This document shows, piece by piece, positions 34,789 through 63,392 of a stretch of DNA of 64,000 nucleotides. The notes under the pieces were generated by a model. It had not been told where the DNA came from. It searched no databases and was given only the letters and a program-made list of their open reading frames with translations. Origin of the DNA: Chloroflexota bacterium (GTDB taxonomy: Bacteria; Chloroflexota; UBA6077; FW602-bin22; JAMCVK01); assembly GCA_023475225.1 (NCBI GenBank), contig JAMCVK010000026.1, positions 1 to 64,000 of the forward strand, read 5' to 3'. Every line of letters starts with the position of its first letter. Position 1 is the stretch's first letter. Made by a program: the position numbers and the translations under genes.

Positions 34789-37700
34789 TCAGGCTAGCTG
34801 TTGGCCTGCGCTCAGGCTCGAGTGGAGATTCCTTGCCTTCTCCAAGTCTTTGGTTGTCCCCAACTTCTGGAGTGAAGCAATGGCCTGGGAGAGATATTCC
34901 TGGGCCTTGGCCGGCTCCCCTTGACCGATACAAAAAAGGGCTCTCTCATAGAGGGCCAAAGCCGTCTCGCGCTCACTGCCCAGCTCCTGTAATAGCTGTT
35001 CACAGGACGACAGATGCTCGGCGGCCGAAGCCCAGTCACCTCGCAGGCGGTATGTCGTAGAGAGCACCCGATGAGCGATAGCCTCTTCTAATCTATTCCC
35101 CGTCTGCTGTGCCTGGTGGAGAGCGCGTAAGGCGTAATCAAAGGCCGTCGTCTGGTCTCCGAGCTCTATATAGCTTTCGCCCAGCTGTCGGCAGATCTCG
35201 GTCAATGCCTCACCAGCCCCAATCCCTTGAGCCATCTGGAGACTTCGTTTGAGGCTCTCTATAGATTCAGGTGCCCGTCCGAGCTCCCGATAGGCTTCGC
35301 CCAGATTCAGAAGATTGCGCACCACGCCCCGCGCGTCGCCAATCTTCTCTTTCATACTCAGACTCTTCTGGTAATGTTCGATGGCCCGGGGTAAATCCCC
35401 CCTCATCCGATGGCTACCGCCTAAATTGGTATAGGCATCAGCAATAGCGGAGGTATAGCCCAATTTATCCGCAACGCGCAAGTAATCCTCAAAACAGGCC
35501 GTGCCTCGCCCATAGTCCCCCTTGCGGATGTAGGCTGCACCAAGGTTATTGTAGAGTGCTCCCACCTCCCAGGGGTCACCGGTACGCTTGGCTTCGCTGA
35601 TTCCTTTTTCCCAACACCCGATGGCCTCATCCCAGTTGCCCGAGAGATAGTGGACATATCCTAACTGACGCCAGGCCTGCGCCAGCTCACGGTGATGCTC
35701 ACTTCCCCGGAGCAGTTCGATGCTGTCGAGGCTGAACTGCCTGGCTAGCTCATAGCGTCCCTGGCGCAAGTATACTTTAGCAATAGAGGCACGAATGCGC
35801 GCTAACAAAGCTATGTGGGACGGCTCCTCACCCACAGCTGAGACGGCTGCTCCAAAGACCCCCAGGGACAGGTCATATTTGCCCCGCTTTTCATGAACGT
35901 TTTCACCGATGCGCCATAAGATATCAGCGTATTTTAGCGGCTCCCAACAATGGGCTAGGGCCCCTTCATAACTGGTTAAGGCATCGTCGTACTCCCCAAG
36001 GAGAGCATAGACATCGCCCCGATTGGTCAAGATCTCCACCCGCTGCCCGCGCAGCATCTCTGGGGACACGGCCATCTCCTCCGGAGATAAGCCGACCACT
36101 GCTTGATCCGGCTGTTTCTCCAGATGATCCACCGCCTCAAGGGCCTGGCTATAGTAATGCAATGCCTCGCGGTTGGCATACAGTCTCTTAGCCTTATCGC
36201 CAGCCAGGGCAGAGAATCGCAGGGCTTTCGCCCATACCTCCCCACGGTGATAGTGATGGGCCAGCGCCTCTACGTGTGGCTCCAACCGATCGCTATAACG
36301 GCGCTCCAGGCGCTCAGCCACCTTCTGGTGCAACTCCCTCCGTGAGCGGAGGAGTAAACTATTGTAAGCGACCTCCTGAGTAAGGATATGTTTGAAGGTA
36401 TACTCTGGCTCACGGGCATGGCGGTCGCGCAAGAAGATAAATTCGCCCTCCTCCAGCTGGCTAAGGCAAGGGTTAAGTTCGGCCACATCAGAGATTTCCC
36501 TCAGTAAACCAAGACTGAAGCGGCGGCCGATCACGGCGGCCTGCTGCAAGACCCGCTTAGGTTTTTCCTCGAGTCGATCCAGGCGGGACATTATTACCCC
36601 CTGCACACTTTCCGGAATAATAGTGGGGGTGATCGGCCCATCAGCCCGCCAGGTATGATTCTCCCTCACGAGCAACTTGCTCTCGATAAGCGACCTGATT
36701 ATCTCCTCTACATAGAACGGATTGCCCCCGGACCGTTGCACGATAAGCTCTCTTGTTTCATCTGGCAAGCTGGTTACACTGAGCAAAGAAACAATCAGCT
36801 CAGAGCCCTGCTCCACAGTCAGCGGTTGCAGAGCGATGCGGGTATGTCCTGGGTGTGTCCACCAGTGTTCCGGTTCCTGTAAATCGGGTCGGTGGAGCAG
36901 ACAGAAAAAGATGGGTACGTCCTTGAGCTGTTCAGTGAGGAAATCAAGCAGTTCAAAGGATGATGGATCAACCCAATGCAAATCCTCAACGACGATGAGT
37001 AATGGCGCCTTCCCTGCCTCACGTTCGAGGAGCTGGCGCACGGCGGCAAACGTCTCCTTCTTCCACTGTTGGGGAGAAAGGTGGGACGGGCTGACATCCT
37101 TCGCCCCAGAGAGAAGATGATTAATGGGCACTCTTAGCTCAGATGCCTCCAGACGAGCAGCCATCTTTGTCTGGATATCCTCCTCTGTATCCTCATCGGT
37201 GAGGTGAAAGTAATCGCGCAGGAGATCGGAAACAGCGCTGTAGGTGTTACCCTGAGTGTAGGGTAAGCAGCGGCCCTTCAGGTAGGTGACCGTCTCCAGA
37301 CGACCGCTCTCCTCCAGGTATTTGCGGAATTCGAAGAGAAGACGCGACTTGCCCAGGCCAGCCTCACCTACGATACAAACGAGCTGCGCCTTGCCCATCA
37401 TCGCCAGGGTAAAGGAGGACTTCAACTGCTCCAGCTCGGTCGTTCTACCGATGAATTTCGATTCTAGCCCTTCTATCCCCCGCATAGGGCGGCGCTGCTT
37501 GGCCAGCCCTATCACCTCATAGACCTGGAGTGGTTTCTCTTTGCCTTTAACGTACAACGGCTCAAGGGGTGTAAAATCGAAAACTCCCTGGGTAAGGGAG
37601 TAGGTGCTATGGCTGACCAGAACCTTGCCCACTCCGGCTGAGTGCTCTAGCCTGGAGGCTACATTGACGGCATCGCCCATTACGGTATAGTCTATCTTAG

Positions 37701-38286
37701 CCTCTGACCCAATGCCTCCGGCGATCACCTCACCGGTGTTAATGCCGATGCGCATGGCTAATGGTCGTCCGATCCTCTTCTCCAGTCCCACGCTGATCTG
37801 CTTAAGTTCCTCCTGCATCTCCAGGGCAGCCCTGATCGCCCGCTCCGCATCATTTTCGTGGGCGATGGGGGCCCCGAAGAGGGCCATGATGTTGTCACCG
37901 ATGTATTTATCAATCGTACCCTCATATTTGGTGATCCTGGCCCCCAGACGTTGGAAGCAATCGTTCATTATATCCCTGAATTCCTCGGGATCCAGCCGCT
38001 CGGTTATAGCTGTTGAGCCGCTCACGTCGCTGAACAGGACGGTCACCTGGCGGCGCTCGGCTTCTAACGAGGGGCGCACTGGCTCGGCCGCAGGGGGAGG
38101 GGGTTGAGGAGGAGGCGCCGCAGGCGTCTCTGGGGCGCCGAGAGGGGCACCACATCCACCACAGAAGCGGAACTGAGGCGGGTTGACAAAGGCGCACTGG
38201 CCACAAGTGATAGGCAGCTTGGCGCCGCAACCACCACAGAAACGCATGCTCTCCGGGTTCTCGAAACCACATGTGCCACAGCGCAT
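34789..38286 (-). CDS. Class III nucleotide cyclase with AAA ATPase and TPR domains
   Basis: This 1165-residue signalling protein is built as follows. Two zinc ribbons come first (CGTCG...CGGCG and CGQC...CGGCG), then a proline-rich linker. A class III cyclase domain follows (about 78-270) with metal Asp in LFSDVSGSTA and GDNIMALFG, Lys in DKYIGDN, Asp in KIDYTVMGD and Asn/Arg in NVASRLE, a set typical of active adenylyl cyclases. An ATPase has Walker A CIVGEAGLGKSR and Walker B LLIVVEDLHWVD. About a dozen TPR-like repeats end the protein. The input signal is unknown. It lies alone, divergent from the rib operon. Confidence 0.88.
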   Translation of the reverse strand: MRCGTCGFENPESMRFCGGCGAKLPITCGQCAFVNPPQFRFCGGCGAPLGAPETPAAPPPQPPPPAAEPVRPSLEAERRQVTVLFSDVSGSTAITERLDPEEFRDIMNDCFQRLGARITKYEGTIDKYIGDNIMALFGAPIAHENDAERAIRAALEMQEELKQISVGLEKRIGRPLAMRIGINTGEVIAGGIGSEAKIDYTVMGDAVNVASRLEHSAGVGKVLVSHSTYSLTQGVFDFTPLEPLYVKGKEKPLQVYEVIGLAKQRRPMRGIEGLESKFIGRTTELEQLKSSFTLAMMGKAQLVCIVGEAGLGKSRLLFEFRKYLEESGRLETVTYLKGRCLPYTQGNTYSAVSDLLRDYFHLTDEDTEEDIQTKMAARLEASELRVPINHLLSGAKDVSPSHLSPQQWKKETFAAVRQLLEREAGKAPLLIVVEDLHWVDPSSFELLDFLTEQLKDVPIFFCLLHRPDLQEPEHWWTHPGHTRIALQPLTVEQGSELIVSLLSVTSLPDETRELIVQRSGGNPFYVEEIIRSLIESKLLVRENHTWRADGPITPTIIPESVQGVIMSRLDRLEEKPKRVLQQAAVIGRRFSLGLLREISDVAELNPCLSQLEEGEFIFLRDRHAREPEYTFKHILTQEVAYNSLLLRSRRELHQKVAERLERRYSDRLEPHVEALAHHYHRGEVWAKALRFSALAGDKAKRLYANREALHYYSQALEAVDHLEKQPDQAVVGLSPEEMAVSPEMLRGQRVEILTNRGDVYALLGEYDDALTSYEGALAHCWEPLKYADILWRIGENVHEKRGKYDLSLGVFGAAVSAVGEEPSHIALLARIRASIAKVYLRQGRYELARQFSLDSIELLRGSEHHRELAQAWRQLGYVHYLSGNWDEAIGCWEKGISEAKRTGDPWEVGALYNNLGAAYIRKGDYGRGTACFEDYLRVADKLGYTSAIADAYTNLGGSHRMRGDLPRAIEHYQKSLSMKEKIGDARGVVRNLLNLGEAYRELGRAPESIESLKRSLQMAQGIGAGEALTEICRQLGESYIELGDQTTAFDYALRALHQAQQTGNRLEEAIAHRVLSTTYRLRGDWASAAEHLSSCEQLLQELGSERETALALYERALFCIGQGEPAKAQEYLSQAIASLQKLGTTKDLEKARNLHSSLSAGQQLA

Positions 38287-38577: not shown

Positions 38578-39690
38578 ATGGACTATATGGCCCGTGCGCT
38601 CGCTTTAGCGCGTCTGGCCCTGGGGCGGACCAGTCCCAACCCGGCCGTAGGGGCGGTGCTGGTCAAGAGTGGTCAGGTTGTTGGTGAGGGTTATACCCAG
38701 CCAGCCGGCTCCTGGCACGCTGAGGTCGTGGCCTTGCAAAAGGCAGGGGAGATGGCCAGGGGGGCTACCCTCTACGTGACCTTAGAACCGTGTGCTCACT
38801 TTGGGCGCACCCCTCCTTGCACTCAAGCCATCATCAGAGCGGGTGTAGCCGAAGTGCATATGGCTATGCTCGACCCGAACCCGCTCGTTGGGGGGCGCGG
38901 ACGTCGACAGCTGGAGGAGGCGGGCATCCCTACCCAGGTGGGCGAATACGAGGCTGAGGCCAGGGAACTAAATGAGTCCTTCATCAAGTACATTACGACC
39001 GGGTTGCCGTTCGTCGTAGCTAAATGGGCGATGACGTTGGATGGGAAGATTGCCACCGCCTCTGGTCATTCGAAATGGATCACTGGGGAGACGGCCAGGA
39101 AAAGGGCCCACGAACTACGAGATGTCAGCGATGTCATCCTCGTTGGGGTGAACACGGTCATCACCGACGATCCCCAACTGACCATAAGGCTGGTGGGCGA
39201 AAGTGGCCGACCGCCTCGGACGCGAGACCCATGGCGCGTCATCGTCGATAGCCGGGGGAGGATTCCCCTTACGGCACGGGTCCTTTCGCCAGCCCTGGCC
39301 CAGGGCACGATAATCGCCTCGACGGAGCTCAGCGACCCGCTTAAACGAAAACAGATGGAGGAGAGCGGAGCGGAGGTGCTTCTCCTACCGGAGAAGGATG
39401 GGCATGTCGACTTAAGCGAACTTATCGCGCTCTTAGGTAAACGCGGCGTCACCAACGTATTGGCCGAAGGGGGTGGCGAACTGCTGGCTTCGCTCTTCAC
39501 CGCCGGATTGGTCGACAAGGTATATGCCTTCATTGCCCCCAAGATCATTGGAGGCAGCAGGGCCCCGACGCCCGTGGGCGGGCTGGGAATCAAGTCTATG
39601 GCTGAGGCTCTCACCCTGAAGGATAGACGAGTAGAGATACTGGACGATGATGTGCTGATCCAGGGTTACCCACGCCGTAACGGAGGCTAA
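38578..39690 (+). CDS. ribD: Bifunctional riboflavin deaminase/reductase RibD
   Basis: RibD deaminates the pyrimidine made from GTP and then reduces its ribose. The N-terminal deaminase has zinc ligands in WHAEVV (H47, E49), PCAHFGRTPPC (C72, C81). The C-terminal reductase starts near residue 150 with KWAMTLDGKIATASGHSKWI and has DSRGRIPL and NVLAEGGGELLASL. First gene of the operon under the FMN riboswitch; GGGGAG lies 6 bases before the ATG. ribE follows 2 bases after the stop. Confidence 0.97.
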   Translation: MDYMARALALARLALGRTSPNPAVGAVLVKSGQVVGEGYTQPAGSWHAEVVALQKAGEMARGATLYVTLEPCAHFGRTPPCTQAIIRAGVAEVHMAMLDPNPLVGGRGRRQLEEAGIPTQVGEYEAEARELNESFIKYITTGLPFVVAKWAMTLDGKIATASGHSKWITGETARKRAHELRDVSDVILVGVNTVITDDPQLTIRLVGESGRPPRTRDPWRVIVDSRGRIPLTARVLSPALAQGTIIASTELSDPLKRKQMEESGAEVLLLPEKDGHVDLSELIALLGKRGVTNVLAEGGGELLASLFTAGLVDKVYAFIAPKIIGGSRAPTPVGGLGIKSMAEALTLKDRRVEILDDDVLIQGYPRRNGG

Positions 39691-39692
39691 TC

Positions 39693-40325
39693 GTGTTTAC
39701 GGGGATTGTTGAAGAGGTAGGCAAAGTCCGCGAGGTTCGGGCGGACCGTTTAACCATAAAGGCCAGACTGGTCCTCACCGATTTAAAGCCAGGGGATAGT
39801 ATCGCCGTCAATGGCGCCTGCCTTACGGTGGCAAGGCGAGGCGAGGATTGGTTTGCGGTGGCTGTGATGCCTGAGACGATCAAACGCACCAACCTCTCCC
39901 AGCTCGTGAGTGGCGACCGGGTAAACCTGGAACGGGCCCTTCCCCTGGGTGGTCGCCTGGGAGGTCACTTTGTGCAGGGCCATATCGATGATGTAGGCCG
40001 GGTACTCACTTTGAGGCGAGAGAAGGAGGCGATCGTGATGCGCTTCGCCGCGCCGCCAGAGGTGATGCGTTACATCGTCGAGAAGGGCTTCATCGCTGTA
40101 GACGGTGTTAGCCTGACTGTCACTGCTTGTGATGATGCCTTTTTTGACGTCTCGTTAGTAAAATATACCCGGGAGAATACCAATCTAGGGGAGAAAAGGT
40201 CGGGTGACCTGGTCAACCTGGAGGTAGATATACTGGCCAAGTATATAGAGAAGTTCACCCAGGAACGTACCTCTAAGGCGTCCATCACCGCCGAACTTTT
40301 GGCCACTTACGATTATAAGCCCTAG
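39693..40325 (+). CDS. ribE: Riboflavin synthase alpha subunit
   Basis: The enzyme dismutates two 6,7-dimethyl-8-ribityllumazine molecules into riboflavin. The 210 residues hold two lumazine-binding repeats, the first beginning FTGIVEEVG and the second [12 protein letters not shown], with NGACLTV and DGVSLTV as repeat-equivalent loops. GTG start directly after ribD. A typical homotrimer is expected. Confidence 0.96.
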
Positions 40326-40339
40326 GAAGGAGACCGCTT

Positions 40340-41551
40340 ATGCCCTTAGCCACTATCCAGGAAGCCATAGAGGATTTCAAAGCAGGCAAATTCGTTATTA
40401 TCGTGGACGATGAAGACCGCGAAAACGAGGGCGATCTGGCCATCGCCGCGGAGAAGGTTACACCAGAGGCGATCAATTTCATGGCTAAGTACGGCCGGGG
40501 CTTGATCTGTCTGCCTATCATCGGCCAACGTCTTGATGAATTGCAAATACCGCTAATGGTGCAGAATAACACCGCTGTCTTTGGGACAGGCTTCACCGTC
40601 TCGGTGGAGGCCAAGCATCTGGTAACAACTGGTATCTCCGCTTACGATCGGGCGGCAACCGTCAAGGCCATCCTGGATTCAAGAACGAAGCCGGAGGATT
40701 TGGCCCGTCCCGGGCATATGTTCCCTCTGCGCGCCAGGGACGGGGGGGTTCTGGTACGGGCTGGTCAGACGGAGGCGGCCGTTGATCTGGCCAGACTGGC
40801 CGGCTTGTATCCGGCCGGGGTTATCTGCGAAATAATGAACGACGACGGCACCATGGCCCGCCGCCCCCAGCTGGAGGAATTCTCGGCTAAACATGGGATC
40901 AGGATCATCAGCGTGGCCCAACTGATCGAATATCGTCAACGACACGAGAAGCTGATCAGACGCGTGGCCGAGGCGAGCCTGCCCACGAAATATGGCGATT
41001 TCACGACTATCGCCTACGAAAGCATTATCAGCAAAGAACCCCATATCGCCCTGGTCAAAGGAGATGTGGCTACAGACGACCCTGTCCTCGTCCGGGTGCA
41101 CTCCGAGTGCCTAACGGGAGACGTGTTTGGCTCCCTGCGCTGCGACTGCGGAGAGCAAAGGGATCTTGCCCTGGGGATGATTGGAAAGGAAGGACGCGGT
41201 GTCTTCCTCTATATGCGCCAGGAGGGACGGGGCATCGGACTGCATAACAAGCTGAGAGCCTATGCCCTCCAGGATGAAGGGCTGGATACGGTAGAGGCTA
41301 ACCTCAAGCTGGGCTTTGCGCCCGACCTGCGTGATTACGGCATCGGCGCTCAGATCCTGGTTGATCTGGGCCTAAAAAATATCCGCTTGATGACCAATAA
41401 TCCCCGTAAGGTAGTCGGACTTGAGGGCTACGGATTGACCATTGTTGAACGTGTCCCCTTGCTGGTTGTGCCTAACCCATTAAATGCGCGCTACCTGGCC
41501 ACAAAACAGACGAAGTTGGGTCATCTTCTAAATATGGAGGAAAAGGGATGA
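40340..41551 (+). CDS. ribBA: RibBA: DHBP synthase and GTP cyclohydrolase II fusion
   Basis: The N-terminal half (about 1-200) is 3,4-dihydroxy-2-butanone 4-phosphate synthase with [11 protein letters not shown] and GHMFPLRAR. The C-terminal half is GTP cyclohydrolase II with zinc site [19 protein letters not shown] and [18 protein letters not shown]. The two supply both branches of riboflavin synthesis. The 403-residue length is normal. Its stop overlaps the ribH start by 4 bases. Confidence 0.97.
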
Positions 41552-42033
41552 GAAGGATCTACGAGGGGAATCTACTTGGCGCCGGCTTACACATGGGCGT
41601 GGTTCTTTCCCGGGTTAACGATTTTGTCGGGAACAGGCTCCTGGAGGGGGCGATGGATGCCCTCCTGCGACACGGGGTGCGTGAGGAGGATGTAGACATC
41701 GCCCTCGTGCCGGGTGCCTTCGAACTACCTCTGGTGGCCAAAAAGATGGCTCAGAGTGATCGGTTCGATGCTGTGATCTGCCTTGGTGTCGTCATCAGGG
41801 GAGACACGCCTCATTTCGAATACATCGCTGCTGAGGTGTCTAAGGGCATCGCCAATACCGCCCTGGAAACTGGCGTGCCGATCACCTTTGGCGTCATCAC
41901 GGCCGATAGTCTGGAACAGGCCATCGAGAGAGCCGGGGCTAAGGCCGGTAATAAGGGATTCGATGCCGCGGTGAGCGCCGTCGAGATGGCCAACCTGATG
42001 AAGAAGCTGGGAGGCCCGGGCTTACCGGCCTGA
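41548..42033 (+). CDS. ribH: 6,7-dimethyl-8-ribityllumazine synthase
   Basis: This 161-residue enzyme condenses the RibD product with dihydroxybutanone phosphate. [35 protein letters not shown] and [14 protein letters not shown] with NKGFDAA are the family motifs, including the active-site His in TPHF. Last gene of the riboswitch-controlled operon. It forms pentamers or 60-mers in other bacteria. Confidence 0.97.
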
Positions 42034-53161: not shown

Positions 53162-53635
53162 TTAGCTCCCAGATTGACTAACAGGTACCCAGTCATATGT
53201 TCGCTTAGTTACCTTCAGATATTGGGAGGTCTCTACGCCCTTGATCCCGGGGATCGCGGCTAGTTTCTTGGTTAGGAAGTCGAGAAGGTCATCACTCGAA
53301 GTGAATAGGACAACAGCAACTATGTTGTACCTACCAGCCGAGATGCTCACAAACCTGACCTGCCTCAGCTCAGCGATTTTGTGCGCAATTTCCTCTAGGT
53401 GAGCCGGCTCCGCCTGGATGCCTACGAGCATGTTAACGTTGTAGCCCAAGTGGAAGGGATTGGTTAGAGCAGCAATGTGCATACTCCCCCGCTCGATTAA
53501 GCCTCTTATGCGTTTGCGTATGGTTGCCTCTGTGACCCCTATCTCCCGGGCCAAATCCCTGTTACTCTTCCGCCCATTTTCGCGCAGAGAGGCTATAATC
53601 TTTTGATCCAGGCCATCGATGCGTTTATTAGCCAT
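53162..53635 (-). CDS. Lrp/AsnC-family transcriptional regulator
   Basis: This protein of about 157 residues has an N-terminal HTH (RIDGLDQKIIASLRENGRKSNRDLAREIGVTEATIRKRIRGL) and a C-terminal RAM ligand-binding domain (VGIQAEPAHLEEIAHKIAELRQVRFVSISAGRYNIVAVV). ATG 53635 is the start by homology although the frame extends to 53734. There is no Shine-Dalgarno, and the -10 element ends 6 bases before the ATG, so the mRNA is probably leaderless. It is the likely regulator of the downstream importer and catabolic genes. Confidence 0.87.
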   Translation of the reverse strand: MANKRIDGLDQKIIASLRENGRKSNRDLAREIGVTEATIRKRIRGLIERGSMHIAALTNPFHLGYNVNMLVGIQAEPAHLEEIAHKIAELRQVRFVSISAGRYNIVAVVLFTSSDDLLDFLTKKLAAIPGIKGVETSQYLKVTKRTYDWVPVSQSGS

Positions 53636-53641
53636 ATCAAT

Positions 53642-53670
53642 AATATACCACTTAATTCGCAAATAGTCAA
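53642..53670 (-). promoter_or_regulatory. Promoter of the AsnC-type regulator (leaderless)
   Basis: On the minus strand TTGACT (53665-53670), a 17-base spacer and TATATT (53642-53647) lie directly before the ATG at 53635, placing the transcription start at or next to the A of ATG. Three TTGCGAA/T repeats in and upstream of this promoter (about 53656-53693) are candidate operator half-sites for autoregulation. Confidence 0.6.
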
Positions 53671-53795
53671 CATTATCGCAAAATTGGTTCGCAATTACAT
53701 ATAGTTTAGCGCGATAAATGCTATATTTCGACAATTACAGCCTGTAGGGTTTTTCAGGCCAGATTTTTATGTTAAACTTCAAGGGGAGGCAGCCA

Positions 53796-56231
53796 ATGTT
53801 TTTGCCCACATTTCTCAGCCGCATGGGACTACAAAAGAAGATCATCCTCTATGTTCTTTTGGGGATGGCTCTCAACCTCAGCTTTTTCACCTTCCTGGCC
53901 ATGCGCTCTATAAACGAGAGCATAAGCGAAATTACGCAAGGCCGCCTCACCATCGCTGAGCAAGCCGCCCGATACCTCGACCGCAACTTCCAGCAGTCCC
54001 TCGACCTGCTAGAAAGGACGGCCTCCCTTGAGCCCAGCGATCTCCATCAAGACGATGGTCCTAAATCAGCCAGGATGATGCTCAAGGACCTCTATCACTA
54101 TTCCGGCATCTTTAGCGGTGGCATCGTTCTTATTAACACCGGGGGCACAGTACTCTTGACCGAACCCTACTCCCCCCAAACAATAGGGTCGAATGTTCTA
54201 GAACTTCCCTACATCAATACCATCCTCCTTTCAGGAAGAGGTGGTATCGCCGGCCCGGTCGCCTCTCTAGTCAACCAAAGGGCGGCCCTCTCCCTTACCA
54301 CTCCTCTCCGAGATAGCGCCGGCCGCATCTCAGGGGTGATCATCGGGTACATTGACCTCACCCAGCCCAGCCTCGCCGACCTCATCCAGCCTTTAGCTCC
54401 AGGGAAGACCGGTTACGCTCAGATCATCGATATGAACGGGACTATTCTAGCCAGCACCAGTGCGGAGCGCTTGTTTGAGCGCAGCGATCACGGTGGCCGT
54501 TTCGCTGCCCTCATCAGCGAGAGGAAAACGATGGTGGGAACGTGCCACGATTGTCACCATGTCGGTGGGAATCAGGCTAGAAGTGAGGAATTGCTGGCCT
54601 TTGCCCCCTTATCTACTGTTCCCTGGGGTGTAACTATCCAACAGAGCGAAGAGGAGGCTTTCGCCCCCACCAAAAGGTTCCAGTGGCAAATGTTAGCCTT
54701 CGGCATAATTGCCCTCCTGAGCGCTATACTGCTGGCCTGGGCGACCACCCGTAGCGTGGTGCATCCCTTGAATGCCCTTACTGTAGCGGCCCATAGGATT
54801 ACCGCTGGCCAGCTCGATGGCCAGCTTACAGTAGGAGGAGCTGATGAGATTGGGAGGCTGAGCCGTGCCTTCGAGGAAATGAGAGGGAGATTGAAGAGGT
54901 CCCGGGAAGAAATAGAGGCATGGAATAGGGAGCTGGAAAATAGAGTGAAGCAGCGAACAAGAGAGCTGGCCGCCTTATTGGAGATCGCTATGACGTTGAC
55001 CACCAGCTTTGATCTGGAAACCCTCTTCGCCAAGGTGTTAGAGAGGGCTGTAGACGCCTTCGACGTCGCCGACGCAGGAGCCCTTTTCCTGTATGATCCA
55101 GAAAAGGAGGCCTTGGTAGCTAAGTCCTCTCTTGGCTATCAAGTGGAGCCACTCTCTCAAGCAAGATTGAAGCCGGGCGAGGCCATCGTAGGTAAGACCT
55201 TTCAGGCCGGACAGGCTATGCTTTACTGTACCCCTCGGGATGTGGCCCTCGCCATCGAAAACATGAGCAGCGAAAACCAAATCCTTTTTGAAAGAGCACG
55301 AACCGGTTTACGCCAGCCACAAAGCGCCATATGCGCCCCCCTGCAAGCCCACGACGGCAGCAGTGGGTGCCTTCTCCTGATCAATTTGAGACAGCCGGGT
55401 GCCTTCCAGCCGGAAGACCTGCAACTGTTACAGGCTATAGCGGCCCACATCGCTATCGTCCTGGAGAACGCTCGCTTACTCAAGGAAGCTAGTCAAGCCA
55501 AAGCTTGGGAGGAGGCTGACCGATTAAAATCGGAGTTTCTAATGGCCATCTCTCATGATCTGCTCACTCCCCTTACCTCAATCAAGGCCTCGACCGATCT
55601 CCTCCTGGCAGAGAAAGCGGATGGCTTCAGCGAAGCCGAGGCCAAGTTGCTGCATAACATCAGCCGCAACACCGAACGTTTGAAGGGGCTGGTGGCCGAC
55701 CTGCTCGATATGGCCTGGCTGCAAAGCCGACAGGTAAATCTAAGGCTGGAGCCTCTCGATCTCAAACAAGTCATTGGCGATGTGAGTGAACTTTTCAAGC
55801 CGCTTATGGTCGCCAAGGAGCAAACCCTGGATCTTGCACTGTCCCTCACCCTTCTGCCAGTTAGGGCCGATCGACGCAGGGTAGAACAGATTCTGACCAA
55901 CCTTCTCTCCAACGCCCACAGGTACACCCCCAGGGGTGGATCCATTCGTATTGCGGCCCACGCCGGGGATGGGGACATCATAGTTCAGGTCAGCGATACT
56001 GGCCCAGGTATCCCTCTAGCTGAGCGAGAGCACATCTTTATGAAGTTTTATCGCGGTCGGCGGGCCAAGACCGCTCCACGCGGCGGAACGGGCTTGGGAC
56101 TCTCCATCGCCAAGGCCATCGTGGAGCTGCATGGGGGCAGGATATGGCTGGGGGATGAGACAGAGCAAGGCACCACCATTTTCTTCACCTTACCGCAAGG
56201 AGGAGACGATGAAAGTCCTGGTAGTCGATGA
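53796..56231 (+). CDS. Sensor histidine kinase with extracytoplasmic CXXCH (haem c) motif, HAMP and GAF
   Basis: The 811-residue kinase has a first membrane helix at about 15-35 and a Cache-like extracytoplasmic domain at 40-295. CHDCH (residues 250-254) is a c-type haem motif in this outside domain. A second helix follows at 299-317, then HAMP (318-370), coiled coil, GAF (395-565), HisKA with FLMAISHDLLTPL (phospho-His 587) and HATPase (TGPGIP, GGTGLGLSIAK). ATG 53796 is chosen with AGGGGAGG 6 bases upstream; the frame begins 9 codons earlier. The overlapping OmpR-type regulator gene is its partner. Covalent haem would let it sense redox potential, NO, CO or O2; that is inference. Confidence 0.9.
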   Translation: MFLPTFLSRMGLQKKIILYVLLGMALNLSFFTFLAMRSINESISEITQGRLTIAEQAARYLDRNFQQSLDLLERTASLEPSDLHQDDGPKSARMMLKDLYHYSGIFSGGIVLINTGGTVLLTEPYSPQTIGSNVLELPYINTILLSGRGGIAGPVASLVNQRAALSLTTPLRDSAGRISGVIIGYIDLTQPSLADLIQPLAPGKTGYAQIIDMNGTILASTSAERLFERSDHGGRFAALISERKTMVGTCHDCHHVGGNQARSEELLAFAPLSTVPWGVTIQQSEEEAFAPTKRFQWQMLAFGIIALLSAILLAWATTRSVVHPLNALTVAAHRITAGQLDGQLTVGGADEIGRLSRAFEEMRGRLKRSREEIEAWNRELENRVKQRTRELAALLEIAMTLTTSFDLETLFAKVLERAVDAFDVADAGALFLYDPEKEALVAKSSLGYQVEPLSQARLKPGEAIVGKTFQAGQAMLYCTPRDVALAIENMSSENQILFERARTGLRQPQSAICAPLQAHDGSSGCLLLINLRQPGAFQPEDLQLLQAIAAHIAIVLENARLLKEASQAKAWEEADRLKSEFLMAISHDLLTPLTSIKASTDLLLAEKADGFSEAEAKLLHNISRNTERLKGLVADLLDMAWLQSRQVNLRLEPLDLKQVIGDVSELFKPLMVAKEQTLDLALSLTLLPVRADRRRVEQILTNLLSNAHRYTPRGGSIRIAAHAGDGDIIVQVSDTGPGIPLAEREHIFMKFYRGRRAKTAPRGGTGLGLSIAKAIVELHGGRIWLGDETEQGTTIFFTLPQGGDDESPGSR

Positions 56232-56901: not shown

Positions 56902-56998
56902 TGCCCCCTTTCCCCAGTCGACTCCCTCCTACGGTGGCCATAAACCCTTCCCACAACAGCCCCCGGCGATAGTCAGGTTTTTCTTAGAGCGAAATTTG

Positions 56999-57051
56999 TT
57001 ACCAATCCTTAACCTTTATTAACCCCAAATGTTACTTTCATATGCTATCTT
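56999..57051 (+). promoter_or_regulatory. OmpR-type binding repeats and promoter upstream of hdrC
   Basis: TTACC (56999-57003), TTAACC (57009-57014) and TTAACC (57019-57024) repeat with an exact 10-base period, followed by TTACTT at 57032. TGC-TATCTT (TATCTT at 57046-57051) is an extended -10. The repeats occupy the -35 region, as in PhoB-type activated promoters. The adjacent OmpR-family regulator is the obvious candidate binder. Confidence 0.55.
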
Positions 57052-57124
57052 GTAAGAGAAGGATGGCGCGTCCCCATACAGTAAGACCTTGATGATAGGG
57101 GAAAAGCCCCGAAGGAGTTGGGCG

Positions 57125-57700
57125 ATGAATCTACAAACCTTCGAGCTAGAGAGGGAGATGCTCGATCACCACTTCGCCGAAACGGTTACGCCGGATCGGG
57201 AGAAGCTGCTCACCTGCATCCAATGCGGCACCTGTACCGCCTCTTGCCCAACCGCTTATGCGATGGATTATACCCCTCGTCAGTTATGGAGGCTGATTCA
57301 GGTGGGGATGAGGGAGGCTGTACTCAACAGCACCACTTTTTGGCTGTGTACCTCCTGCTATTCCTGCACCATTCGCTGCCCCCGGGGGATCGCCTTGACC
57401 GAGACGATGAGCAGCCTGAAACGGTTAGCCATGGCTGAGGGGATCAGGGGACGGGAGAGGATAGCCCGTTTCTACAAAGCTTTTGTGGAAACGATACGCC
57501 GACACGGTCGTATGCACGAAGTAGAATTCATAGCTATCTATCTGGGGAGAAAAGATCCCTTCTCTCTGTTGGAGCGGGCACCTCTGGGGTTGGCCCTTTG
57601 GCGTAAGGGTAAGTTATCCTTGATCCCTATCGAAATGAAAAGGAAGAACGACCTGGCAATCCTTTTCCGTAAGGTCGCCGAGCTGGAGGGACAAAAATGA
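57125..57700 (+). CDS. hdrC: Heterodisulfide reductase subunit C-like protein
   Basis: This 191-residue iron-sulfur protein has two [4Fe-4S] motifs, CIQCGTCTASCP and CTSCYSCTIRCP, in an all-helical frame, as in HdrC. It passes electrons between HdrA and HdrB. ATG 57125 has GAAGGAG 7 bases upstream; the frame opens 12 codons earlier. Its stop overlaps the hdrB ATG (ATGA). Confidence 0.93.
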   Translation: MNLQTFELEREMLDHHFAETVTPDREKLLTCIQCGTCTASCPTAYAMDYTPRQLWRLIQVGMREAVLNSTTFWLCTSCYSCTIRCPRGIALTETMSSLKRLAMAEGIRGRERIARFYKAFVETIRRHGRMHEVEFIAIYLGRKDPFSLLERAPLGLALWRKGKLSLIPIEMKRKNDLAILFRKVAELEGQK

Positions 57701-58605
57701 AATACTCCTACTTTCCTGGCTGCTCGCTACAGGTTATGGCCAGCGAGTACAACACTTCGGCTAGAGCGGTGATGCGCGAACTGGATGTTGAACTGAAGGA
57801 GCTGGAGGATTGGAACTGCTGCGGAGCCACCAACGTTGAGGCTGTCAGTTATCTGCTTTCCATCGCCCTGCCCGCCCGCAACCTGGCTCTGGCTGAGGCG
57901 AAGGGGTATGAACTGGTGGCCACGTGCAGCTCCTGCTTTCTGAATCTCTTTCGGGTCAAGGAGCACATTCGGCGTGATCCCACTTTGCAGCAGAAACTGG
58001 ATATTATCCTGGGCGCTATGAAACTGCACTATGCCGGGACGGTACGGGTGCGTCATCTGCTGGATGTCCTGGTTAACGACATAGGACTGGAAAAGATAGC
58101 CAAAAGGATGCGACGAAAGCTTACGGGACTAAGAGTAGTCCCTTATTATGGCTGCCAGATCGTCCGCCCTTATGCCGAATTCGATGGCCCTGATCTTCCG
58201 GTGACAATGGATCGGCTTATCATCGCCCTGGGGGCGGAAGTTGTGCCTTACCTCTTAAAAACGAAGTGTTGCGGCGGCGCCTTGACCACGACGCGCAAGG
58301 AGATCGGTTTGAAGTTGATCGGCGACCTTCTGCTTCCGGCCGTAGGCACCGACTGTGTCATCACGGTCTGTCCTCTTTGTCAATTGAATCTGGATGCCTT
58401 CCAGTCTCAAGCAGCGGCCAAGCTCAAGGTCTCATTCAACATCCCCATCCTATACTTCACCCAGCTCATCGGTTTGGCCTTCGGCCTGGGAGAGGAGGAT
58501 CTGCAACTTGCCCATAACATCGTCTCTGTGGACAGGCTGTTGACCAAGCTGAAAGCGAGCCGCTCCCCCGCCTTCCAGGGAGCCGATCTCGCCGCCAGTC
58601 CTTAA
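57697..58605 (+). CDS. hdrB: Heterodisulfide reductase subunit B-like protein
   Basis: This 302-residue CCG-domain protein has two cysteine-rich modules: PGCSLQ, WNCCGATN and CSSCFLN in the first; YYGCQIV, TKCCGGA and CPLCQLN in the second. In methanogens these hold two non-cubane [4Fe-4S] clusters that cleave CoM-S-S-CoB. In this bacterium the disulfide substrate is unknown. It is directly coupled to hdrC and followed by hdrA. Confidence 0.93.
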   Translation: MKYSYFPGCSLQVMASEYNTSARAVMRELDVELKELEDWNCCGATNVEAVSYLLSIALPARNLALAEAKGYELVATCSSCFLNLFRVKEHIRRDPTLQQKLDIILGAMKLHYAGTVRVRHLLDVLVNDIGLEKIAKRMRRKLTGLRVVPYYGCQIVRPYAEFDGPDLPVTMDRLIIALGAEVVPYLLKTKCCGGALTTTRKEIGLKLIGDLLLPAVGTDCVITVCPLCQLNLDAFQSQAAAKLKVSFNIPILYFTQLIGLAFGLGEEDLQLAHNIVSVDRLLTKLKASRSPAFQGADLAASP

Positions 58606-58624: not shown

Positions 58625-61600
58625 ATGCGTAAGGCAAAGGTAGGCGTTTATATCTGTCACTGCGGCACCAATATTGCCGGGACGGTCGCTGTAACTGACG
58701 CAGCCCAGTTCGCTGCTAGGTTGGACAACGTCGTGGTGGCTCGTGACTATAGATATATGTGCTCGAGCACTGGACAGGAGATAATTAAGCAAGACATTAA
58801 AGATTTAGGGCTAGAACGAGTCGTTGTCGCTGCCTGTTCTCCCCTGATGCATGAGTTCACCTTCAGGGCCGTCATCGCCGAAGCCGGGCTTAACCCCTAT
58901 TTCCTGGGCATCGCTAATATTCGGGAACAGTGTTCCTGGATCACGCACGACGTGGGCATGGCCACACAAAAGGCCAAGCAACTGATTCGTGCCGCTGTAG
59001 CACGCGTGGTCTGGCAGGAACCGCTAGAGGAGAGAGAGGTCGAGGTAGAACCGGCCGCGCTGGTGGTAGGGGGTGGCATCGCTGGCATCCAGGCCGCCCT
59101 GAGCATTGCTACGCCTGGCTATAAAGTGTATCTGGTGGAGCAAGAGTCCTCCATCGGAGGGCGCATGGCCCAGCTAGACAAGACCTTCCCCACCCTTGAT
59201 TGCTCCGCCTGTATCCTGACCCCGAAGATGGTGAACCTGGCCAGAGAGAAAAATATCGAGCTCCTGACCTGTAGCGAGGTCGTAGCGGTGACAGGATACG
59301 TGGGAAACTTCGAGGTCAAGGTCAAAAAGAACCCTCGCTATGTGGACCTGGAGAAATGTACTGGCTGTGGAGAGTGCGTCTCGCCTTGTCCGGTAGAGGT
59401 GCCACACCATTTTGACCACGGTTTGGGGCAAAGGAAAGCCATCTACCGTCTGTTCCCCCAAGCTGTACCCGGCGCCTATATCATTCAAAAGGAGGGTATA
59501 CCACCCTGTCGCGCTGCTTGCCCGGCAGAGGTGAATGCCCAGGGCTATGTGGCTCTTATCGGTCAGGGCAAGATTAAGGAGGCCCTCGATCTGATCCGGC
59601 GGGACAATCCCTTTCCAGCCGTCTGCGGGCGGGTGTGCCATCATCCCTGTGAGGATAAATGTACCAGGAGAGAGGCGGATGAACCCATTGCCATCTGTGC
59701 CCTCAAACGCTTCGTCACCGACCATACCGATGGACGTTCCGTCCCCTTAGAGAGGACTAAGGCAGAGAGGGTGGCCGTCATCGGGGCAGGACCAGCAGGA
59801 CTATCGGCCGCCTATCATCTCCTCCAAAAGGGCTATGGCGTCACTGTCTTTGAAGCCCTGCCCCTGGCGGGAGGCATGCTGGCTACGAGCATCCCGCCCT
59901 ATCGTCTGCCTAAGGAGATATTGGCGAAAGAGATCGCCTATATCGAGGGCTTAGGGGCAGAGATCAGGACCAACAGCCCTATCGGCCGGGAGGTGAAGCT
60001 TTCCAGTCTCTTCGAACAGGGCTATAGTGCGATCTTCATCGCTGTCGGTGCCCAGAGAAGCCAGCGCCTCGCTATCGCTGGCGAGAACCTGAACGGGGTC
60101 TTTGACGGCCTAACCTTTCTCAGGGAGGTGAATCTGGGGAAACAGATTGATCTGACCGGGCAGAGGGTGGGCGTTATCGGCGGGGGCAATACGGCTATAG
60201 ATGCTGCTCGTTCTGCCCTTCGCCTGGGGGCGAAGGAGGTGGCCATCATCTACCGCCGCACCCAAGAGGAGATGCCAGCGCTCAGAGAAGAGGTTGTGGA
60301 GGCAGTAAAAGAGGGGGTACAATTTCATATTCTAGCTGCCCCAACGAAGGTGTTGGGGCAGAACGGGAAGGTGGTGGGGATAGAATGCCTCCGCATGGCC
60401 CTGGGCGAGATAGACGAAAGCGGCCGGCGACGGCCGATACCCATCCCAGGTTCTGAGTTCACCCTGGGAATGGATACCCTCATTATAGCCATCGGTCAAT
60501 CGCCTGACCTATCCTTCCTGGATATGGACCTGGCCACTACCCCACAGGGGACCATCACCGTGGATCCCCAGACCCTGGCCACCAATGTGCCTGGCATCTT
60601 CGCCGGTGGTGACGTGGTGAGCGGCCCGGCGACGGTGATCGAGGCCATCGCTGCTGGGAAGAGGGCCGCAGAGTCTATAGACAGATACCTGAGTCTGGAA
60701 GATCTAATAGAAGGGCGGGTCTTTGAGATCCCAGCTGAGAAGATCGTCAAGAAGAAGGTAACAGAGGAGATCGAGTGTAAGCCAAGAGCCCAGATAGCCG
60801 AGCTGAGCCTCAAAGAGAGAGTCCATAATTTCCAGGAAACCACCCTGGGGCTCAGTCAGGAGGTGGCCCTCAAGGAGGCCGGACGATGCCTGAATTGTGC
60901 TGTATGCGCAGAGTGTCTCCAGTGTGAGGCCGTTTGCGGTCCGAAGGCGATAGCCCACGATATGAAGGAAGAGTATGTTGACCTGAAAGTGGGAACGATC
61001 ATCCTGGCTACCGGCCATGACTTCTTCGATCCACGCGTCCTACCTCAATACAACTATGGGCGTTTCCCTAACATCATCGATAGCATGGCCTTTGAGCGAA
61101 TGTGCAGTGCCTCCGGCCCCACCGGAGGGAACATTGTCCTGTCCAACGGCGAAGTACCCAAGAGTGTGGCCTTCATCCACTGCGTGGGATGTCGTGACTC
61201 CCACGCTCTCCCCTACTGTTCCAGGCTCTGCTGCATGCATGCCATGAAGCAGGCCCATCTGGTGAAAGAAAAGACAGGCGCCGATGTCTATGAGCTGTAC
61301 ATAGACATCCGGGCTGGGGGTAAGGGATATGAGGAGTTTTATGAACGGGTGCAGCGGGAGGGAGTGATTTTCATCCGCGGCAGAGGAGCTGAAGTAGTCC
61401 AGCAGGATGGACACCTGGTAGTGAAAGCCGAAGATACCGGCCTAGGACGACCATTGATTCTGCGCGTTGATCTGGTAGTCTTAGTAGTTGGTCTGATCCA
61501 TCGGGCTGATACAGCGCAGGTGGCCAGGATCTTCCGTGTGTCGCGTGATAAGGATGGCTTCTTCATGGAAGCACATCCCAAATTGCGCCCCTTCCACACC

Positions 61601-61987
61601 AATACCGACGGTATCTTCCTCGCTGGCACCTGCCAAAGCCCAAAGGATATACCCGATACTGTAGCTCACGCCAACGCCGCTGCGGCGGAAGCCCTTTCCC
61701 TCCTGGGTCGTGGTCGGGTGCTTATCGAGCCACTAGTGGCCGAGATCAACGCCGAGATTTGCAGTGGTTGCAAGACCTGTCTGGAACTGTGTGCTTATTC
61801 GGCCATCACCTTCGACGAGGAAAAGAGGATCTCTCAAGTCAATACGGCCTTATGTAGAGGTTGCGGCACGTGTGCAGCAGCTTGCCCATCCGGGGCCATC
61901 ACGGCTAGCCATTTCACCGATCAACAGATTCTGGCCGAGATAGAGGCCTTGTTGATGGAAAGTGAACCGGTTTCGATCGCCACTTAG
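58625..61987 (+). CDS. hdrA: HdrA-type flavoprotein with an inserted GltD/NfnB-like flavoprotein module
   Basis: This is a 1120-residue fusion. Residues 1-260 are HdrA N-terminus: CHCGTNIAG, the FAD motif VVGGGIAGIQAA (147-158), LDCSACILTP and a ferredoxin CTGCGECVSPCP. Residues about 285-690 form an inserted GltD/NfnB-like module with its own Fe-S motifs (CRAACP, CGRVC, CEDKC), FAD motif VIGAGPAGLSAA and NAD(P)-type VIGGGNTAIDAARSAL. HdrA then resumes with CLNCAVCAECLQC, HCVGCRD and a C-terminal 2x[4Fe-4S] ferredoxin (CSGCKTCLELC, CRGCGTCAAACP). Two FAD sites suggest electron bifurcation with NAD(P)H as an extra partner. Substrates are inferred. Confidence 0.93.
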   Translation: MRKAKVGVYICHCGTNIAGTVAVTDAAQFAARLDNVVVARDYRYMCSSTGQEIIKQDIKDLGLERVVVAACSPLMHEFTFRAVIAEAGLNPYFLGIANIREQCSWITHDVGMATQKAKQLIRAAVARVVWQEPLEEREVEVEPAALVVGGGIAGIQAALSIATPGYKVYLVEQESSIGGRMAQLDKTFPTLDCSACILTPKMVNLAREKNIELLTCSEVVAVTGYVGNFEVKVKKNPRYVDLEKCTGCGECVSPCPVEVPHHFDHGLGQRKAIYRLFPQAVPGAYIIQKEGIPPCRAACPAEVNAQGYVALIGQGKIKEALDLIRRDNPFPAVCGRVCHHPCEDKCTRREADEPIAICALKRFVTDHTDGRSVPLERTKAERVAVIGAGPAGLSAAYHLLQKGYGVTVFEALPLAGGMLATSIPPYRLPKEILAKEIAYIEGLGAEIRTNSPIGREVKLSSLFEQGYSAIFIAVGAQRSQRLAIAGENLNGVFDGLTFLREVNLGKQIDLTGQRVGVIGGGNTAIDAARSALRLGAKEVAIIYRRTQEEMPALREEVVEAVKEGVQFHILAAPTKVLGQNGKVVGIECLRMALGEIDESGRRRPIPIPGSEFTLGMDTLIIAIGQSPDLSFLDMDLATTPQGTITVDPQTLATNVPGIFAGGDVVSGPATVIEAIAAGKRAAESIDRYLSLEDLIEGRVFEIPAEKIVKKKVTEEIECKPRAQIAELSLKERVHNFQETTLGLSQEVALKEAGRCLNCAVCAECLQCEAVCGPKAIAHDMKEEYVDLKVGTIILATGHDFFDPRVLPQYNYGRFPNIIDSMAFERMCSASGPTGGNIVLSNGEVPKSVAFIHCVGCRDSHALPYCSRLCCMHAMKQAHLVKEKTGADVYELYIDIRAGGKGYEEFYERVQREGVIFIRGRGAEVVQQDGHLVVKAEDTGLGRPLILRVDLVVLVVGLIHRADTAQVARIFRVSRDKDGFFMEAHPKLRPFHTNTDGIFLAGTCQSPKDIPDTVAHANAAAAEALSLLGRGRVLIEPLVAEINAEICSGCKTCLELCAYSAITFDEEKRISQVNTALCRGCGTCAAACPSGAITASHFTDQQILAEIEALLMESEPVSIAT

Positions 61988-62002: not shown

Positions 62003-62473
62003 ATGTCCACGAACTTTGAACCCAGGATCATCGGTTTCTTATGTAATTGGTGCGCCTATAGTGGGGCGGACCTGGCTGGGACATCGCGGATGGTTCATGC
62101 TCCCAATGTGCGCGTTGTGCGCATGATGTGTACAGGGAGGATTGATTCGACCTTCGTGGTGAGAGCCTTCGCCGCAGGCGCCGATGGCATCATAATCGCC
62201 GGATGCCATCCCGGTGATTGTCACTACAGTGAGGGCAACTACAAGGCCATGCGTCGCTTCTTTCTGATGAAGAAGATGCTGGCTCAATTCGGACTCGAGC
62301 CAGAGCGCCTGCGCCTGGAGTGGGTCTCAGCTGGTGAGGGGGCGAAATGGGCTAAGGTAGTCGGCGAGATGACCGAGGCCATAAGGTCCTTAGGCCCACT
62401 GGATTGGGGCCAAAACCTGATAGTTGAGGAGCATCATGAGCAAGCTCAAGTTGGCGTTTTACTGGGCCGCTAG
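62003..62473 (+). CDS. mvhD: MvhD-type iron-sulfur linker protein
   Basis: MvhD joins the hydrogenase MvhAG to HdrA. The 156-residue protein has FLCNWCAYSGADLAGTSR, MMCTGR, GCHPGDCHYSEGNY and a helical C-terminus, the normal [2Fe-2S] pattern, all with cysteine rather than selenocysteine. It lies 15 bases after hdrA with GGAGGTG upstream of ATG, and overlaps mvhG. Confidence 0.94.
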   Translation: MSTNFEPRIIGFLCNWCAYSGADLAGTSRMVHAPNVRVVRMMCTGRIDSTFVVRAFAAGADGIIIAGCHPGDCHYSEGNYKAMRRFFLMKKMLAQFGLEPERLRLEWVSAGEGAKWAKVVGEMTEAIRSLGPLDWGQNLIVEEHHEQAQVGVLLGR

Positions 62474-63392
62474 CTGTGGCGGCTGCGACGTAGCCGTACT
62501 CGATCTGAATGAAAAGATCCTCGATGTGGCTGCTGTAGCCGACATCCTTCTCTGGCCGATCGCTATGGACTTCAAGTATACCGATGTGGAGGCCATCGAG
62601 GATAAAGGGATAGATATCTGCTTCTACAACGGAGCGATTCGCTTCTCCGAACACGAACACCTTGCCGCGCTCCTGCGCGCGAAGTCAAAAGTGATGGTCG
62701 CCTTCGGTTCCTGCGCCTGGCTGGGAGGTATTCCCGGACTGGCTAACGTGGCCGGCCGCCAAAGCATCTTTCAGTTGGTATATAAGGATACCCCCTCTAC
62801 CGATAATAAAGAGGGGGTATTCCCTCAAGTGCGCTGGCCGATCCCCGCCGGGGAATTAACGCTCCCCCAATTCTACGATACGGTTAAAACTTTACCTCAG
62901 ATCATTCCGGTCGAATATTACCTGCCGGGGTGTCCTCCGGCCGTCCACCAGATTGAGGCAGTGATAGCGGCTATCGTCGAGGGACGGTTGCCCCCACCAC
63001 CAGCCGTTATCGGCGCTTCGGACAAAACAGTCTGCGATGAGTGCAAACGGCTCAAGGAAGAAAAGAAGGTTAGATCTTTTGTGCGCCCGCACCTGGTCGT
63101 CCCTGATCCCGAAAGATGTCTTCTGGAACAGGGAATCGTTTGTTGTGGGCCAGCCACGCGTGGTGGCTGTGGGACCAGATGCTTGAATGCCAATCTACCC
63201 TGCCGAGGGTGTTATGGGCCACCACCTGGCGCAGTGGATCAAGGAAGTAAGCTCCTCAGTGCGGTAGCTTCCATCATTGACAGCAACGATCCCGAGGAGA
63301 TCGCCAAGATTGTGGATCAAATCGAGGACCCTCTGGGAACCTTTTATCGTTTTGGACTACCAAGCTCCACCTTAAGGAGGGCAAGGGTATGA
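62436..63392 (+). CDS. mvhG: [NiFe]-hydrogenase small subunit, MvhG-like (group 3c)
   Basis: This small subunit of 318 residues passes electrons from the Ni-Fe site through Fe-S clusters. Proximal-cluster motifs are ASCGGCD, FGSCAWLGG and LPGCPP. The C-terminal part has CDECKRL, CLLEQGIVCCGPATRGGCGTRCLN and PCRGCYGPP for further clusters. No Tat signal, so cytoplasmic. ATG 62436 has GAGGAG 5 bases upstream, overlapping mvhD by 38 bases; its stop overlaps mvhA (ATGA). Confidence 0.93.
   Translation: MSKLKLAFYWAASCGGCDVAVLDLNEKILDVAAVADILLWPIAMDFKYTDVEAIEDKGIDICFYNGAIRFSEHEHLAALLRAKSKVMVAFGSCAWLGGIPGLANVAGRQSIFQLVYKDTPSTDNKEGVFPQVRWPIPAGELTLPQFYDTVKTLPQIIPVEYYLPGCPPAVHQIEAVIAAIVEGRLPPPPAVIGASDKTVCDECKRLKEEKKVRSFVRPHLVVPDPERCLLEQGIVCCGPATRGGCGTRCLNANLPCRGCYGPPPGAVDQGSKLLSAVASIIDSNDPEEIAKIVDQIEDPLGTFYRFGLPSSTLRRARV

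Follow-up and report, generated by a model that had tools for sequence, protein, structure and literature searches.

The closest described counterparts of the sensor analysed here carry a c-type haem in a Cache domain. GSU0582 and GSU0935 of Geobacter, Tll0287, and their relatives belong to the DUF3365/Tll0287 family (PF11845), renamed sCache_heme in a 2026 preprint that describes it as the first case of a covalent cofactor in a Cache domain and as rare or absent in Chloroflexota (PMC12889525). In these proteins an extracytoplasmic domain of the Cache type, which has a single CxxCH close to its end, is fused to HAMP and a kinase or to other signalling outputs (PMC12889525, PMC8396549). In GSU0582 the motif was described between strands 3 and 4 (PMC3460858). 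Experiments have shown such haem-c sensors to be responsive to redox or to NO (PMC8396549, PMC12889525): GSU0582 and GSU0935 bind NO and CO and display a redox-linked ligand switch (PMC8396549), and a signalling sCache_heme of P. azotoformans binds NO tightly and does not bind O2 (PMC12889525). DcrA of Desulfovibrio vulgaris likewise senses redox potential and oxygen through a periplasmic c-type haem (PMC8396549), but it is a chemoreceptor and not a kinase, and we compare it by description alone.

We studied a sensor histidine kinase encoded in a stretch of 64,000 nucleotides of a Chloroflexota genome (hereafter the window; Table 1). It shares with sCache_heme proteins the extracytoplasmic Cache-type domain, the single CxxCH near the end of this domain, and the fusion to HAMP and kinase modules. 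The two differ in that sCache_heme has a single Cache, matched by PF11845, with a CLxCH motif in the Chloroflexota members examined, whereas the kinase and its relatives have a double Cache, matched by dCache_1, with a CHxCH motif. We propose that the kinase is probably a haem-c sensor of redox state or of a gas. Elsewhere, the window encodes a protein of 1165 aa (34789-38286, minus strand) that resembles, below the cut-off, the model of a TOMM kinase/cyclase fusion and has TPR-like repeats, and a riboflavin operon (38578-42033, plus strand) with RibD, riboflavin synthase, RibBA, and lumazine synthase.

Table 1. Features of the kinase locus, in positions of the window.
Feature	Position	Strand	Remarks
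Sensor histidine kinase	53796..56231	+	811 aa; TM1, double Cache, TM2, HAMP, GAF, HisKA, HATPase
dCache_1 domain	53934..54635	+	Residues 47-280; Pfam PF02743, 61.8 bits; fold matches PctA, Mlp37, 3lif
CHDCH, predicted haem c attachment site	54543..54557	+	C250, C253; predicted proximal ligand H254
OmpR/PhoB-type response regulator P0002	56209..56901	+	Predicted phospho-acceptor D53
Candidate response-regulator operator	56998..57036	+	GTTACC/TTAACC/TTAACC/GTTACT; start-to-start spacing 11/10/12
Candidate extended -10 element TGCTATCTT	57043..57051	+	Just 3' of the operator; found by eye
HdrC-like iron-sulfur subunit	57125..57700	+	Likely ATG 57125; TTG 57089 in the ORF list
HdrB-like protein	57697..58605	+	CCG domains
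HdrA2-like protein	58625..61987	+	1120 aa; N- and C-terminal HdrA parts with an NAD(P)-binding module of the GltD/PRK12771 type between them
MvhD/VhuD-like subunit	62003..62473	+	
MvhG/VhuG-like small [NiFe] hydrogenase subunit	62424..63392	+	

A conserved CHxCH motif in a double Cache domain

The ATG at position 53796 was preferred to a longer alternative at 53769 because GGGGAGG, a strong ribosome-binding sequence, lies immediately 5' of it. A gene for an Lrp/AsnC-family regulator (53162-53734, minus strand) is divergently oriented, about 60 bases away. The dCache_1 score of the kinase exceeds the curated cut-off of 45 bits, and Pfam profiles also matched HAMP (residues 317-367), GAF (406-557), HisKA (578-644), and HATPase_c (692-801). 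With HAMP, HisKA, and HATPase_c in the kinase, and a receiver and Trans_reg_C in the adjacent regulator, the pair has the make-up of a HisKA/OmpR two-component system, in which H587 would be, judging from the motif, the phospho-acceptor of the kinase. The nearest NCBIfam models of the regulator, MtrA and RpaB, both scored below their cut-offs.

Translation of the reading frame placed CHDCH at residues 250-254, exactly as in the original prediction. There are no more than five cysteines in the whole kinase, and two of these belong to the motif. Shuffling of the first 330 residues produced a CxxCH in 5e-5 of the trials, and its presence in the outside domain is thus more than chance. The AlphaFold2 model (15 sequences, pLDDT 86) has long helices at residues 12-76 and 290-336 flanking two Cache modules in tandem. 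The motif occupies the last part of strand 246-251 and the loop leading into strand 264-271. This is a position between strands three and four of the membrane-proximal module, the second of the two, and the confidence of the loop itself is low (54). The original prediction had spoken of a Cache-like outside domain with the motif shortly before the second membrane helix. Both points hold, and the domain can be named more precisely as a double Cache, given the PF02743 match and the two modules between the membrane helices.

Foldseek searches with this model returned the dCache receptors PctA, Mlp37, and 3lif at the top (E ~1e-11 to 1e-12), and sCache_heme structures were absent among the best 50 matches. 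The membrane-proximal module alone gave a weaker model (pLDDT 73) that matched WalK/YycG and dCache modules. The kinase thus shares its fold and PF02743 with dCache_1 receptors such as PctA, Mlp37, and rpHK1S-Z16. Receptors of the PctA and Mlp37 type have no covalent cofactor, their ligands being amino acids or other soluble compounds, whereas the family of the kinase has a predicted haem motif in the membrane-proximal module.

The 24 distinct homologues that make up what we call the heme clade all come from Chloroflexota, and every one of them has C250, H251, C253, and H254. In 35 non-haem dCache relatives the positions of the cysteines are occupied by gaps or other residues. Loss of the motif in orthologues, named in the original prediction as one of the observations that would speak against it, was not what we found: CHxCH is kept throughout the heme clade, a near relative (L028) has no motif, and two others (L052 and L055, in genomes G247 and G054) have CxxC only. 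The latter are nested among haem-type sequences and carry GCLGC, with both cysteines and no histidine, possibly a variant for thiol chemistry or another cofactor. The motif-bearing sequences still group together when the columns of the motif are left out of the tree (2 changes, against 16.7 when shuffled). The simplest history would be one gain followed by losses, the direction not being given by the tree alone.

The same genome encodes two paralogues with the motif at the same position: one with CHDCH (L002), and one with CHNCH, whose gene lies partly at the end of contig C35 and partly at that of contig C30 (the two pieces, L003 and L005, overlap in sequence). Further members were found by class- and phylum-level searches. 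We also scanned 84,980 named species genomes with two peptide patterns, both lying outside CHxCH; the query was a four-sequence alignment, so distant members may be missed. The scan gave 15 loci, all in Chloroflexota, where 16 of 16 haem-type proteins have CHxCH; two of these loci (L068 and L074) repeat ones already found (L012 and L040). Patterns that exclude the motif recruited 16 of the 24 heme-clade sequences. Outside Chloroflexota there were six weak plasmid matches in Azospirillum and Variovorax, at about 25% identity.

It is likely that haem is covalently attached at CHDCH. Where an invariant extracytoplasmic CxxCH occurs in a genome with cytochrome c maturation genes, here of the CcmF/NrfE, CcsB, and CcmC types, the simplest interpretation is a c-type haem. 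Such genes permit haem attachment but prove nothing, because they are too common in the phylum: PF01578 was found in 16 of 17 genomes with the kinase and in 355 of 400 background genomes, and we rejected this co-occurrence as evidence for haem since it does not discriminate.

Neighbouring operons, candidate operator, and signal

The kinase was predicted to lie next to a hydrogenase operon, and the gene order bears this out: kinase, response regulator, HdrC, HdrB, HdrA, MvhD, and MvhG, with the large subunit MvhA and a maturation protease just past the end of the window (L092:7597-9332). The paralogues also adjoin redox operons. The second haem-type kinase (L089), which has HisKA_3, is encoded with a LuxR-type regulator directly 5' of dsrA, dsrB, dsrC, dsrM, and dsrK. 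This cluster (L089:8063-16882, contig C36) provides the Chloroflexota genome with a dissimilatory-type sulfite reductase. The third (the split gene, L090/L091) precedes NrfH-like and ExtM-like cytochromes with 6 and 13 CxxCH, respectively (L091:6298-8626). Kinases of relatives cluster with CcmF and with cytochromes of the multihaem or NapC/NrfH type (L082, L075, L080, L093), or have Hdr genes (L098) or the gene of a molybdopterin enzyme (L079) nearby. Multihaem-cytochrome neighbours are not enriched, being found for 5 of 22 haem-type kinases and 3 of 18 non-haem dCache relatives (p = 0.71).

We considered and rejected the idea that haem kinases head all redox operons of this genome. Two LuxR-type two-component systems with non-haem kinases, devoid of CxxCH, adjoin molybdopterin oxidoreductase/Fer4 operons (L141:495-7139 and L143:1-6205), and the association of haem kinases with redox operons is therefore only suggestive.

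Between the regulator and hdrC lies an array of four repeats (Table 1). At least three TWAC(C/T) repeats spaced by 10-12 bases were found, in 422 kb searched on both strands, only in the hdrC promoter, in a duplicated copy of it on contig C29, and in another genome (G011, locus L098); shuffled windows contained 0.03 such arrays per strand. The array in the window is not independent evidence, because the motif was defined after seeing this site. The L098 array is independent, though its spacing pattern was viewed by eye before the scan, and it lies 5' of hdrC, beside a haem-type kinase and an OmpR-type regulator. A promoter scan did not list the candidate -10 element, which is conserved in the duplicated copy. 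The sequence TTAACCNNNNTTAACC occurs twice in the genome, in the hdrC promoter and in this copy. The copy (L134, region of G000:C29:10419) aligns with positions 56987-57279 of the window; it holds the four repeats and approximately the first 50 codons of hdrC, is then cut off, and is followed by a membrane-protein gene.

We propose the following chain of events. The haem would be held outside the membrane by C250 and C253. H254 would supply one axial ligand, and the sixth position would be exchangeable or taken by a non-conserved residue. A change in the state of the haem, by redox or by a small ligand such as NO, would shift the haem-bearing Cache module next to the membrane, and TM2, HAMP, and GAF would relay this shift to the catalytic HisKA/HATPase core. 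Phosphorylation of the OmpR-type regulator, the product of the next gene, would follow. This regulator would bind the TWAC(C/T) array and thereby match the expression of HdrCBA-MvhDGA to the redox conditions outside, its binding and the direction of regulation being part of the proposal. Taken as a whole, from dCache-haem sensor to redox control of the operon, we regard this scheme as reasonably likely.

The most serious alternative keeps the haem and changes the signal: the kinase would sense NO or CO, as proposed for sCache_heme, and the operon would belong to a nitrosative or gas response instead of being under redox control. The ligands bound by GSU0582, GSU0935, and the P. azotoformans protein (PMC8396549, PMC12889525) favour it, as does the NrfH-like cytochrome next to the third paralogue. 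Yet the operons found nearby are those of Hdr-Mvh, dsr, and multihaem cytochromes, with none for denitrification or for the detoxification of NO, and the domain of the kinase falls outside the family for which NO binding was measured, so that we consider this reading unlikely, if worth keeping in view. We infer that redox sensing fits the operons best, whereas NO sensing fits those relatives, the only ones studied biochemically.

The motif histidine and the distinction from sCache_heme

The first variable residue of CxxCH is a histidine in 24 of 24 sensors and in none of 89 CxxCH motifs from 13 multihaem ORFs of the fetched loci. A histidine at this position is not needed for haem attachment. 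Since H251 is nevertheless invariant, the site may have a role beyond haem binding, and H251 may serve to adjust the haem pocket or may point to a different cofactor. In the alignment of the 24 heme-clade sequences with non-haem relatives we found no clade-specific distal residue that could serve as sixth ligand; H232 is invariant in the clade but also present in most non-haem relatives.

The invariance of all four residues, the absence of a histidine at the place of H251 from the 89 cytochrome motifs, and the retention of CxxC without the histidine in L052 and L055, could also indicate a metal (C2H2-type) or thiol-disulfide site, with the kinase sensing metal or thiol redox state. We judge this improbable: an exact extracytoplasmic CxxCH is normally haemylated where cytochrome c maturation genes exist, four ligands within five residues do not easily coordinate one metal, and the position is also fixed in the other haem-c Cache family, as leucine in 12 of 12 Chloroflexota members of PF11845 examined (CLxCH).

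A c-type haem being the preferred reading, its carrier appears to form a family of its own. All 24 heme-clade homologues match dCache_1 and none matches PF11845, even at E = 10; the whole genome of the kinase has no PF11845 match. Alignment of the two families with hhalign covered 10 columns around CxxCH and nothing else, and with the motif masked there was no alignment at all. PF11845 occurs in 13 of 400 sampled Chloroflexota genomes, none of them among the five with the present family, a disjointness that is not significant with such small numbers. Two strands follow the motif in the AlphaFold2 model of the kinase family and apparently one in sCache_heme, as judged from its sequence. This comparison of strand counts tentatively suggests different insertion points and an independent origin. 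The analogy with Geobacter in the original prediction hence holds for function but not for family, the Geobacter proteins being DUF3365/sCache_heme. That the kinase is merely a divergent sCache_heme member, with the same chemistry at a similar place near the second membrane helix and, as in GSU0582, between strands 3 and 4, is hard to credit given the profile matches, the hhalign results, and the strand counts.

Implications for Chloroflexota

We give even weight to the broader idea that a second haem-c Cache family arose independently in Chloroflexota. CHxCH would have appeared in a double Cache, within the module nearer the membrane, and members of the family would then have specialised, in a single genome, each on the control of a different operon of anaerobic energy metabolism (for Hdr-hydrogenase, for dissimilatory sulfite reductase, and for multihaem cytochromes). 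What is probably new is a separate double-Cache haem family, together with a candidate DNA target, in a phylum reported to be nearly free of haem-Cache sensors. If such a family exists, this would suggest that Cache sensors gained haem more than once. A hydrogenase operon of the electron-bifurcating type would then be preceded by a defined sensor, its response regulator, and a candidate DNA site, and dsrAB by a paralogue of the sensor. To our knowledge, the regulation of Hdr-hydrogenase and dsr pathways in these lineages has been little studied. For the cell, the kinase probably provides a means to adjust an operon of hydrogen metabolism to outside conditions.
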